Source: Saccharopolyspora ipomoeae
Lineage (GTDB): Bacteria; Actinomycetota; Actinomycetes; Mycobacteriales; Pseudonocardiaceae
Reading direction: 5' to 3'
DNA length: 64,000 nucleotides
Assembly (NCBI RefSeq): GCF_029952525.1
Contig: NZ_JASAOF010000002.1
Coordinates: forward strand, 434,001-498,000
The notes under the pieces are model-generated. The model worked only from the letters and a program-made list of their open reading frames with translations, was not told where the DNA came from and did no database searches. This document shows, piece after piece, positions 25,140 through 58,872 of this stretch. The position numbers and the translations under genes are program-made. Position 1 is the stretch's first letter. Each line of letters starts with the position of its first letter.

Positions 25140-25234
25140 GGAGACGTTCGGGGTCTGGTGACCCCCGCGGCCTTCAAAGCCGTTGGCGCCGAGCAACTCG
25201 ACGCGGCGGGTTCGATTCCCGTCCGTCTCCGCCA
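25140..25234 (+). tRNA. selC: tRNA-Sec (anticodon TCA)
   Basis: The 95-nt gene has encoded CCA (25232-25234), discriminator G, and anticodon TCA at 25174-25176 in the loop CTTCAAA closed by GGC/GCC. The T arm is GCGGG-TTCGATT-CCCGT. A long variable arm (GGCGCCGAG-CAA-CTCG...) and an extended acceptor stem are present. Length and layout match known bacterial tRNA-Sec, which decodes UGA with SelB. Seven acceptor pairs are perfect, but the eighth position shows T opposite C. selD follows 35 bases later, so the two probably form one unit. Confidence 0.95.
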
Positions 25235-36020: not shown

Positions 36021-36842
36021 GTGGCACGCATCCTGAGCCTTCGCGAGGCCGTCGCGGAGCTCGTCCACGACGGCGACACGGTCGCGCTGGAGGGCTTCAC
36101 GCATCTCATCCCGGTCGCCGCCGGACACGAGATCATCCGGCAAGGCCGCAAGGACCTGACGCTGATCCGCATGACGCCGGACATCGTCTACGACCAGATG
36201 ATCGGTGCCGGATGCGCGCGCAAGCTGATCTTCTCCTGGGGCGGCAACCCCGGCGTCGGCTCGCTGCACCGCTTCCGCGACGCCATCCAGAACTCCTGGC
36301 CGGTGCCCCTGGAGATCGAGGAGCACAGCCACGCCGGCATGGCCAACCGCTACGCCGCCGGGGCCTCCGGGCTGCCGTTCGCCGTGCTGCGCGGCTACAC
36401 CGGCACCGACCTGCCGGCCCAGACCGAGACGATCAAGCCGATCGAGTGCCCGTTCACCGGCGAGCGCCTCACCGCCGTCCCGGCGGTGAACCCGGACGTG
36501 GGCATCATCCACGCGCAGCGCGCCGACCGGGCGGGCAACGTGCAGATGTGGGGCATCACCGGCGTGCAGAAGGAGACGGTGCTGGCCTCGGCGCGGTCGC
36601 TGGCGACCGTGGAGGAGATCGTCGACGAGCTCGAACCGGTGCCGGGCGCCGTCGTGCTGCCGCAGTGGGCGGTCACCGCCGTCGCCGAGGTGCCGCGAGG
36701 CGCGCACCCCTCGTACGCGCAGGGCTACTACGAACGCGACAACAGCTACTACCAGGAGTGGGATCCGATCGGCCGGGACCGCGAGCGGTTCGAGCAGTGG
36801 CTGGCCACCGAGGTCCGCGGTGCGGAGAGGAGCGCGCGATGA
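36021..36842 (+). CDS. pcaI: 3-oxoadipate CoA-transferase subunit A
   Basis: The 273-residue protein is the alpha subunit of a family I CoA transferase, with SLREAVAELVHDGDTVALEGFTHLIPVAAGHEIIRQGRKDLTLIRMTPDIVYDQMIGAG near the N-terminus. It transfers CoA from succinyl-CoA to 3-oxoadipate with the beta subunit. Its place as the first gene of a pca operon specifies the substrate. The GTG at 36021 is chosen; the ATG at 35976 overlaps the operator-like repeat. The stop overlaps the next ATG (ATGA). Confidence 0.88.
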   Translation: MARILSLREAVAELVHDGDTVALEGFTHLIPVAAGHEIIRQGRKDLTLIRMTPDIVYDQMIGAGCARKLIFSWGGNPGVGSLHRFRDAIQNSWPVPLEIEEHSHAGMANRYAAGASGLPFAVLRGYTGTDLPAQTETIKPIECPFTGERLTAVPAVNPDVGIIHAQRADRAGNVQMWGITGVQKETVLASARSLATVEEIVDELEPVPGAVVLPQWAVTAVAEVPRGAHPSYAQGYYERDNSYYQEWDPIGRDRERFEQWLATEVRGAERSAR

Positions 36843-37594
36843 GCCTGGAGTTCACCTCCGACGAGATGATGACGGTCGGGGCGGCCCGGTCGCTGGAGGA
36901 CGGCGCGAAGTGCTTCGTGGGCATCGGATTGCCCAGCACCGCGGCCAACCTGGCGCGCCGCACCCACGCCCCGAACCTGGTGCTGATCTACGAGTCGGGC
37001 ACCCTGGGCGCCAAGCCCGACCGGCTGCCGCTGTCCATCGGTGACGGCGTGCTGGCCGACACCGCCGACTCGGTGATCAGCGTGCCGGAGATCTTCAACT
37101 ACTGGTTGCAGCCGGGCCGCATCGACATCGGCTTCCTCGGCGGCGCGCAGGTCGACAAGTTCGGCAACATCAACACCACCGTCATCGGCGGCGACTACAG
37201 CAACCCGAAGGTGCGGCTGCCCGGCGCGGGCGGCGCCCCGGAGATCGCGGCCTCGTGCCGCGAGGTGCTGATCGTGATGCGGATGAGCCCGCGCAGCTTC
37301 GTCGACCGCGTGGACTTCGTGACCTCGCTGGGCTACGGCACCGGCAAGGGCGACCGCGAGGAGCTGGGCCTGCGCGGCAAGGGCCCGGTCAAGGTCATCA
37401 CCGACCTCGGCGTGCTGCGCCCGGATCCCGACACCTGCGAGCTCACCCTCACCGAGCTGAGCCCCGGTTCCACCGTCGAGCAGGCCAAGGAAGCGGCGGG
37501 CTGGGACCTCAAGGTCTCGGACGACCTCGGCACCCAGGATCCGCCCAGTGAAAACGAGCTGGAAGTCCTGCGCGCCCTCAAAGCTACGGTCTAA
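36839..37594 (+). CDS. pcaJ: 3-oxoadipate CoA-transferase subunit B
   Basis: The 251-residue protein is the beta subunit carrying the catalytic Glu: Glu52 in LIYESGTLG, which forms the glutamyl-CoA thioester in family I transferases. GGAQVDKFGNINTTVIGGDYSNPKVRLPGAGGAPEIAASCREVLIVM is typical of this subunit. It is coupled to subunit A by a 4-base overlap. A 176-nt structured repeat starts one base after its stop codon, separating it from pcaH. Confidence 0.9.
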   Translation: MSLEFTSDEMMTVGAARSLEDGAKCFVGIGLPSTAANLARRTHAPNLVLIYESGTLGAKPDRLPLSIGDGVLADTADSVISVPEIFNYWLQPGRIDIGFLGGAQVDKFGNINTTVIGGDYSNPKVRLPGAGGAPEIAASCREVLIVMRMSPRSFVDRVDFVTSLGYGTGKGDREELGLRGKGPVKVITDLGVLRPDPDTCELTLTELSPGSTVEQAKEAAGWDLKVSDDLGTQDPPSENELEVLRALKATV

Positions 37595-37770
37595 CCGTCA
37601 GGCAAGCACCGAAGGTGCTTCCTCTTTGCCCCAAGCAAGCAACCGGCACCGCCGCGGGTTCTGAGCGGCTCTCTGGTGAGGACAGCCGTAGCGCCGTGTA
37701 TTGGAATACATCAGTCTCGGATCCCGGAGCCAGAGAGCCGCTCAGGTTCCGCCACCCGCACCGCCAAGCA
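37595..37770 (+). repeat. 176-nt structured repeat element, copy 1 (after pcaJ)
   Basis: A small hairpin AAGCACC-GAA-GGTGCTT (37604-37620) is followed by a pyrimidine/CTTT tract. A large stem follows: GCGGGT (37654-37659) with ACCCGC (37754-37759), and TGAGCGGCTCTCTGG (37662-37676) with its exact complement (37730-37744). A middle hairpin GTGTAT-TGGA-ATACAT lies inside. GCACCGCC flanks the outer stem on both sides as a direct repeat. Two more copies with different stems but the same framework are at 42455 and 58456. It lies inside the pca operon and should be transcribed. Confidence 0.85.
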
Positions 37771-37812
37771 CAAGGACCACCGAGATTTGACCCAAGTTCA
37801 AGGAGTCCACTT

Positions 37813-42454: not shown

Positions 42455-42629
42455 CTTCCTGCCATGCGGCGACGCCGCATTCTCCTTTCACCACCCAAGG
42501 CACTGGCACCGCCGCGGGTTCTGATCGGCTTCGTGGCGAGTACGCCGGGACGCCGCGAATTGGCAACTCAAGGAACGGCGCACGGAGTCCACGGAGCCGA
42601 TCAGGTTCTGCTACCCGCACCGCCAAGCA
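42455..42629 (+). repeat. 176-nt structured repeat element, copy 2 (after pcaR)
   Basis: The small hairpin is ATGCGGC-GAC-GCCGCAT (42464-42480). The large stem has GCGGGT (42514-42519) with ACCCGC (42613-42618), and TGATCGGCTTCGTGG (42522-42536) with CCACGGAGCCGATCA (42589-42603), one G-U wobble. GCACCGCC flanks as in the other copies. This copy is the most diverged in its middle region. It begins at the base after the pcaR stop and ends 27 bases before the convergent GntR stop, so it could act as a transcript end. Confidence 0.8.
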
Positions 42630-42656
42630 AGGCGATACCTCAACGCCGAAAAGAGC

Positions 42657-58455: not shown

Positions 58456-58631
58456 CCGTCAGGCAAGCGCCGCAGGCGCTTTCCCTTTGCCCCGAGCAAG
58501 CACCTGGCACCGCCGCGGGTTCTGACACGTCTTCTGGGGAGGACAGCCGACGTGTCGTGCGTCGGCACGCACAAGCCTCGGATCCCGGAACGAGAAGGCG
58601 TGTCGGGTTCCGCCACCCGCACCGCCGAGCA
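58456..58631 (+). repeat. 176-nt structured repeat element, copy 3 (after GntR gene)
   Basis: The small hairpin is AAGCGCC-GCA-GGCGCTT (58465-58481). The large stem has GCGGGT (58515-58520) with ACCCGC (58615-58620), and GACACGTCTTCTGG (58524-58537) with CGAGAAGGCGTGTC (58591-58604). The middle hairpin is GTGCGT-CGGC-ACGCAC. It shares near-identical ends with copy 1 and the same total length, while the stems differ and stay paired. Confidence 0.85.
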
Positions 58632-58872
58632 AAGAGACCGCAGAGCCTTGTCAGTGGACGAAACCCCTAACCCCGCGAAACGATCATGACCTCGGATTTC
58701 CCATCGGTGAAAGTCCCGAGAAAGCCACATCGGGCATTATCCTTTTTGCCTGCCTGGGGCACAGGGCGTCCGCTGATTGGGTTCGACGGCCGCCCGGGTG
58801 GCCGGGCGTCGGTTCGATGAGGATGGGGGATTCGTCGCACCGGCGCCGGCGTCACCGTTCAGGAGGGGGACC

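Follow-up and report, generated by a model that had tools for sequence, protein, structure and literature searches.

A large family of mobile, structure-conserving elements at gene ends in Saccharopolyspora and other Pseudonocardiaceae

The window, a stretch of 64,000 nt from Saccharopolyspora ipomoeae, contains three copies of a structured element that lies next to stop codons. Each copy is made up of a small hairpin (P0) followed by a conserved core with a long hairpin, whose stems are numbered P1 to P4. Neighbouring genes were named from domain matches. Scores of the cores refer to a covariance model (R1) built from 46 copies of the host genome and of named genomes.

36839–37594, CoA-transferase gene, with its stop directly before copy 1
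37595–37793, + strand, copy 1, whole element; the ends are approximate, there being no clean empty site
37604–37620, + strand, copy 1, P0 hairpin AAGCACC-GAA-GGTGCTT
37646–37771, + strand, copy 1, conserved core (GCACCGCC, long hairpin, YACCC, GCACCGCC); R1 positions 1–127, 132.9 bits
37654–37752, + strand, copy 1, long hairpin; P1 GCGG 37654–37657 with CCGC 37749–37752, P2 37661–37676 with 37730–37745
37813, start of a protocatechuate 3,4-dioxygenase beta-type gene
42454, end of the stop of an IclR-family gene, converging with the GntR/FCD-family gene below
42457–42656, + strand, copy 2, whole element; empty site in the sister species (G015), with the two stops 2 nt apart
42464–42480, + strand, copy 2, P0 hairpin ATGCGGC-GAC-GCCGCAT with a T-rich tail, matching a simple terminator consensus
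42506–42630, + strand, copy 2, conserved core; P2 arms 42521–42536 and 42589–42604, 116 bits
42657–42659, stop of the GntR/FCD-family gene
58443, stop of a GntR/FCD-family gene, about a dozen nt before copy 3
58456–58660, + strand, copy 3, whole element; the ends are approximate, the sister species having no core here and no clean junctions
58465–58481, + strand, copy 3, P0 hairpin AAGCGCC-GCA-GGCGCTT
58507–58632, + strand, copy 3, conserved core; P2 arms 58522–58537 and about 58590–58605, 122.2 bits

The original prediction placed the copies at 37595–37770, 42455–42629 and 58456–58631, and all three were re-read there, on the + strand. It also described nearly invariant ends. The left motif, GCACCGCCGCGGGTTCTGA, has three exact matches in the window and no others at up to three mismatches (0.15 expected by chance), and the right motif has three exact matches at the same three copies, with six more in the window that each carry three mismatches. 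However, GCACCGCCGCGGGTTCTGA is not the left end of the element, as it lies about 51 nt inside, behind P0. Likewise, the main stem is present but begins further out than had been proposed, since the GCGG outside it pairs with the CCGC of GGTTCCGC. The length of about 176 nt was an underestimate: nine clean comparisons with empty sites give an inserted unit of 188–221 nt, which extends past the ends first assigned. At the copy 1 site the core is absent from the sister species, but 17 nt of the gap are unaligned. The changing yet matching arms of the main and small hairpins held up, both hairpins being reproduced by folding in copies 1, 2 and 3 (z −3.9, −2.6 and −1.6); the fold of copy 3 is weak when taken alone, with 11 of 200 shuffles equally stable. 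In a scan for the terminator consensus, P0 of copy 2 matched with its T run and P0 of copies 1 and 3 did not.

Read 5′ to 3′, the left half of the element consists of P0 with its variable stem, a GCACCGCC box, GCGG-GTT-CTSAG with a variable P2 arm, and a loop region around GCGAGGACAG. The middle holds a variable stem (P3), a small hairpin (P4, TGTAT-TGGC-ATACA) and a loop around AYCCCGSAG, and the right half the second P2 arm, CTSAG-GTT-CCGC, YACCC, the second GCACCGCC box and about 20–30 further nt. The long hairpin thus has two internal loops, within a core of 127 positions. A box stands on both sides of it, exact as GCACCGCC on the left in 78 of 89 copies from the host genome and as GCACCGC on the right in 82 of 89. 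P0 arms include AAGCACC, AAGCGCC, ATGCGGC, AACCGGC, AAGCGGC and others; the longest P0 stem measures 7 bp in 49 of the 89 copies, and nine arm sequences recur at least twice. P1 had been drawn as GCGGGT/ACCCGC, a version that was dropped: in 270 distinct copies GCGG/CCGC is a covarying pair, backed by GGGG/CCCC in 15 and GCAG/CTGC in 10. One locus (L022) has two P0-type hairpins in tandem upstream of a single core, which suggests that P0 may be a separate module. The copies at L104, L167 and L072, the last of which probably coincides with L158, carry some 50–100 extra nt in the hairpin with sequence like GAGGGGCGGTGGTCGGGCTGGCGGG; these extra-length copies, from Prauserella, Amycolatopsis and the genus here called g49, could form a subfamily of greater length or hold another repeat within the first.

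Conservation of structure with changing sequence, as originally proposed, is borne out by a strong covariation signal. With the corrected structure, 46 copies aligned by MAFFT (structure not used) gave a covariation score of 0.434, against 0.140 for shuffled and 0.063–0.120 for slid partners; the structure as first drawn gave 0.408. Of 1504 cells in this alignment 89.6 % are paired, and 24 of the 33 pairs have changed on both sides. Among 2310 cells of the P2 stems, G.U occurs 189 times and A.C 29 times, in 101 and 23 distinct contexts, respectively (ungapped P2 pairs of 154 distinct arm pairs, the 17 of 171 in which fewer than 11 of 15 positions pair being left out). Since each A.C here corresponds to a G.U on the opposite strand, it is the plus strand that folds. 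The folded molecule would be RNA, judging from these counts together with compensatory change at a fixed locus (see below), although single-stranded DNA gives the same strand bias.

The family is far larger than the three copies first reported. The host genome measures 6.63 Mb in 47 contigs; in it the left-motif pattern has 126 matches at up to three mismatches, compared with 4 for a reversed control pattern, and the covariance model finds at least 115 copies at E ≤0.001 when the best 150 candidates are scored. With the best 85 candidates of each genome scored, the same model detects copies in 21 of 22 genomes of the genus: at least 82–85 in 16 of them, 64 in G015, 31 in G021, 6 in G009, 3 in G018, 2 in G020 and none in G019. 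Copy number within a single genus therefore ranges from 0 to at least 85, and the four low-copy genomes (G009, G018, G019 and G020) amount to a natural loss experiment that could help in finding the mobiliser. Under stricter filters, and with the best 14 candidates per genome, copies occur in at least 68 of 249 genomes and at least 14 of 46 genera of the Pseudonocardiaceae. A class-wide draw of 394 genomes (stricter filters, best 8 candidates per genome) gave matches only in the host genome and one other member of the Pseudonocardiaceae. Among the matches listed in the pattern scan of named genomes, the genera are Saccharopolyspora, Actinopolyspora, Halopolyspora, Amycolatopsis and Prauserella. 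Plasmid and phage collections gave no match with copy 1 as the query.

The original prediction could not assign the element to a named family, and Rfam agrees. At gathering scores the only match in the window is a selenocysteine tRNA gene elsewhere (25140–25230, + strand; RF01852, 76.8 bits), with none for the element, and at a permissive threshold there are chance-level matches only, mostly to microRNA families. No description of the element was found in the literature searched, which was mostly open-access and included the available parts of PMC3610266, PMC3733652, PMC3827479, PMC2229807 and PMC2267715. Within the limits of that literature, this is a large and real family of mobile, structure-conserving gene-end elements that has gone without description.

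Copies in the host genome sit at gene ends. Of 89, 80 could be classified by context: 34 lie between converging genes, 33 between two genes on the minus strand, 11 between two on the plus strand and 2 between diverging genes. These counts are approximate, since the crude GC3-based gene caller overlooked some real genes, that for the CoA-transferase in the window being one. A stop codon adjoins 62 of the 80 copies, either 10–35 nt behind the core or 30–75 nt before it, whereas 12.5 % of random intergenic points in G015 fall within stop windows of the same width; the windows were set after the distances had been seen. Diverging gene pairs hold 2 of the 80 copies as against 23 % of intergenic bases. 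Copies from other species are placed in much the same way, although they avoid diverging pairs less strongly: of 94, 33 lie between converging genes, 33 between two minus-strand genes, 17 between two plus-strand genes and 11 between diverging genes. The suggestion of a 3′-UTR element was accordingly right in part, as to placement at gene 3′ ends. One copy in another genome (L148, G165) is flanked by genes for a ring-hydroxylating-dioxygenase beta subunit and a ferredoxin/NAD-oxidoreductase, a setting comparable to that of copy 1 beside its protocatechuate dioxygenase gene.

The family is mobile, so that the other suggestion, a hairpin mobilised by a transposase, was also right in part. About 2.0 Mb of the sister species G015 were compared with the 89 host-genome copies and their flanks. 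For 34 copies both flanks were found: 18 sites are without a core (gap below 90 nt) and 14 contain an element, 12 in the same orientation and 2 reversed (12 recognised by pattern, L006 and L266 by eye). The remaining two, inspected by eye, hold a remnant (L317) and an unrelated sequence (L309). The latter includes the inverted repeat CCAGTGGACAGTTTTAGCC / GGCTAAAACTGTCCACTGG and may be a different element that also makes use of gene ends. At least one of the 18, L028, represents a loss and not an insertion difference, as G015 still has the element's left part there. Nine of the 18 have no clean junction, window copies 1 and 3 among them. Of the nine sites with clean junctions (aligned within 5 nt), seven give target duplications of 5 nt (CTTAA), 4 nt (CTAG), 2 nt (three sites) and 0 nt (two sites), while in the other two 3 and 4 target nt are unaligned. 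No terminal inverted repeat is present at these nine sites, the longest match averaging 3.9 nt as against 4.0 in mismatched pairs. Shared flank words of at least 7 nt occur in 26 of 133 copies where about 14 are expected, a slight excess. Dyad symmetry of the target is not enriched in the small sample of 10 empty sites, where the longest dyads of 2–6 bp are like those of 916 gene-end controls.

Single gene pairs, compared by eye across the genus, show the same turnover. The IclR/GntR gap of copy 2 contains the element in the forward orientation in the host genome (G000, 202 nt) and in G013, and reversed in G016. What is left in G002 is P0 and the right end, a remnant that lacks the long hairpin. 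The gap is empty in G015, which is the nearest relative here and has its two stops separated by 2 nt, and in G004, G011, G012 and G020, with stops 1–3 nt apart; G005 and G017 have short gaps without the element. In the gap of copy 1 the element is found in G000 and G007, no core in G015 and G016, and remnants in G010 and perhaps G001. At L262 a copy of another subfamily lies reversed at the same site in G015. The median identity to the nearest copy is 89 %, and among the 87 host-genome copies with a long match only 3 reach 95 % or more; recent activity is therefore low. The three closest copies have unrelated flanks. In Saccharopolyspora dendranthemae, copies at L042, L066, L074, L088 and L128 are accompanied by another short repeat, similar to CTAAAACTGGGA, which occurs on both sides at L066 and L074 and may be a nested or outer repeat family.

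Two known kinds of enzyme were sought as mobilisers. HUH-Y1 (Y1_Tnp, PF01797) is matched in 9 of the 22 genus genomes; the 13 without a match include the host genome, G015, G001, G002, G003, G004, G007 and G013, which have from 64 to at least 85 copies. Reverse transcriptase (RVT_1, PF00078) is matched in 7 of the 22, the host genome being among the 15 without a match. With no match in the host genome or in many high-copy genomes, both were set aside as mobilisers. Clustering of 934 proteins encoded around loci L001–L173 gave no candidate partner gene that recurs beside copies; the largest clusters (11, 9, 8 and 8 loci), named by eye, are common enzyme and transporter families, and the neighbours at gatB recur as orthologues. 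A full-length version with a gene between its ends was also looked for by eye among unpaired ends from L031 onward, and no candidate was seen. Thus, either these searches hold no candidate mobiliser or the mobiliser has been lost.

A copy at a fixed position allows the stems to be followed between species. In the genus g49, 1–4 copies were detected in each of seven species, and in five of the seven one copy lies antisense at the end of gatB (GatB domains matched for L149). Across these five species 8 of the 16 P2 pairs vary, and all 8 have changed on both sides; all 16 pairs are intact in four species and 3 of 16 are broken in L155. Of the 77 core columns outside P1, P2 and P4, 16 are variable, and 10 of these belong to the P3 region. 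Taken together with 70 nt upstream, the element has diverged by 14–26 % between species, and four-fold sites of gatB by 19–24 % (four species, L155 having no usable gatB reading). Divergence of the element is thus close to that of four-fold sites, so that what is conserved is the paired and looped pattern of the core and not the whole stretch; the core loops are the only part clearly more conserved than four-fold sites. In G149, G129 and G102 the gatB copy is the sole copy detected, which makes conversion from donor copies unlikely. Compensatory stem change at this site suggests, from sequence comparison, a function after insertion. Correction of one arm from the other could mimic part of the pattern, yet would not keep the loop sequence or the G.U pairs. 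The 10 readable same-orientation sites common to G000 and G015 (3 more are unreadable) are too similar to be informative on compensation: of 150 stem cells 144 are the same, 3 are changed on one side with pairing kept, 2 are broken and 1 is doubly compensated.

These observations are probably best explained by a non-autonomous mobile element that also has an RNA-like role at gene ends, with some copies taken over by the host. An element of about 200 nt, in which no gene of its own is recognised, would have spread through the Pseudonocardiaceae by means of an enzyme acting in trans. Insertion would take place beside stop codons, often exactly between converging genes, with 0–5 nt duplicated. 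The feature recognised and kept would be the single-stranded fold of the plus strand, namely the long hairpin with two internal loops between GCACCGCC boxes and P0 before it. Once inserted, a copy may be transcribed within the 3′ untranslated end of the gene beside it, and its fold would there most likely protect or define the mRNA 3′ end, or else separate converging transcription. Some copies, as that at gatB, may have been taken over by the host and held by selection. The elements would then probably be both RNA tails at work and genome parasites. A purely selfish DNA hairpin, with a fold that serves only transposition as single-stranded DNA or a cruciform and has no host function, is possible though doubtful. 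The high copy number, its range from none to at least 85 in one genus, the insertion differences and opposite orientations at the same sites, and the deletion remnants (in the IclR/GntR gap of G002 and, in G015, at L028 and L317) are all as such an element would leave them, as are the little-changed stems common to G000 and G015. Pairing would then be due to new copies arising from paired parents, or to arm-templated replication (quasi-palindrome correction). However, the sole gatB copies of G149, G129 and G102 are compensated with no donor copy found, G.U pairs have been retained where correction would have removed them, and only 16 of 77 columns outside P1, P2 and P4 vary in the gatB copy, 10 of them in the P3 stem region.

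The converse reading, in which immobile host 3′-end elements (terminators or stabilisers of mRNA ends) are spread by recombination between gene ends, would account for the tight placement at stop codons and the rarity between diverging genes in the host genome, but is very improbable given cleanly inserted units of about 200 nt where the sister species has empty sites, the reversed copy of another subfamily at L262, and the unrelated flanks of the three closest copies. A REP/RAYT system, in which a HUH (Y1) transposase moves the element and P0 is a CGTC-tagged REP, seems scarcely probable: although the fold is strand-specific, insertion leaves little or no duplication, the right flank often begins with CT (by eye) and one subfamily begins with CGTC, PF01797 is unmatched in 13 of 22 genus genomes, including the host genome and further ones in which copies number from 64 to at least 85. 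Moreover, REP units of 20–40 bp with CGTC stems of 8–9 bp, as given in the available text of PMC3733652, are unlike both the 7-bp P0 and the long core; P0 was rejected as a CGTC-REP for its stem length and distribution. RNA-like covariation, the G.U bias and short duplications of variable length would suit a SINE-like RNA element copied by reverse transcriptase, but RVT_1 is unmatched in 15 of 22 genus genomes, the host genome included, and no tail was seen by eye. Such copying is disfavoured for current activity in the host genome, and we give it very little weight overall. A bolder version of the preferred reading, the mobile element with an RNA-like role at gene ends, is unlikely but deserves mention: a gene-end ‘RNA transposon’, the selected form of which would be a structured RNA that repeatedly supplies 3′ untranslated structures, has been domesticated at gatB in some lineages, and is moved by a class of enzyme new to miniature elements, neither HUH-Y1 nor reverse transcriptase.

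For small palindromic repeats of bacteria it is an old question whether the fold serves the host or only the element. The present family bears on it through a copy number of 0 to at least 85 in one genus, empty and filled sites at the same gene pairs, and a fixed, compensated copy in genomes with 1–4 detected copies; the single-locus gatB case points to host use of the element. The benefit of such a hairpin to the gene that it follows, and the identity of the enzyme that places it there, can both be tested in soil actinomycetes. Additionally, the covariance model could be employed to mark elements in industrially used Saccharopolyspora genomes.

Several described repeats share features with the element. 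RUP, Correia/NEMIS and other bacterial MITEs are alike as non-autonomous repeats of less than 200 bp. Most of them have terminal inverted repeats, which RUP shares with an IS, according to the available part of PMC2229807, whereas none was found in the element at nine sites. REP units measure 20–40 bp with a GTAG or CGTC tag in the available text of PMC3733652. The element resembles REP/BIME as a high-copy extragenic palindrome, but differs from REP/RAYT in its core of 127 positions, a P0 of mostly 7 bp, CGTC in part of the copies only, and no Y1 match in the host genome. REP and BIME sequences occur near stop codons. ERIC sequences form hairpins and lie in transcribed positions. The available parts of the sources describe ERIC (IRU, RU-1) as a repeat of about 127 bp (PMC2759123) with terminal inverted repeats and TA termini (PMC2229807). 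The present element is alike as a hairpin-forming repeat, but has no terminal inverted repeat.

By description only, the closest described kind appears to be YPAL/RU-2 of Yersinia; membership is not claimed. As far as the available part of PMC2229807 describes it, YPAL/RU-2 is a repeat of about 168 bp with many intergenic copies, internal and not terminal inverted repeats, and a composition that is not A+T-rich. The same account gives target duplications of 3–26 bp, targets that span or adjoin dyad symmetry, empty and filled sites between related strains, and a suggested influence on the RNA of the upstream gene. Set against that description, the two are alike in approximate size, large number of intergenic copies, internal hairpin, lack of terminal inverted repeats, a composition without A+T richness, variable duplications, empty sites and a proposed effect on upstream RNA. 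The element differs in that its insertion of 188–221 nt is somewhat longer than the roughly 130–170 bp of that kind, its duplications at clean sites are 0–5 nt instead of 3–26, and its targets have no dyad enrichment (10 sites). Within the class searched it occurs only in the Pseudonocardiaceae, its core has two GCACCGCC boxes and two internal loops, and compensatory differences are documented for it at a fixed locus.
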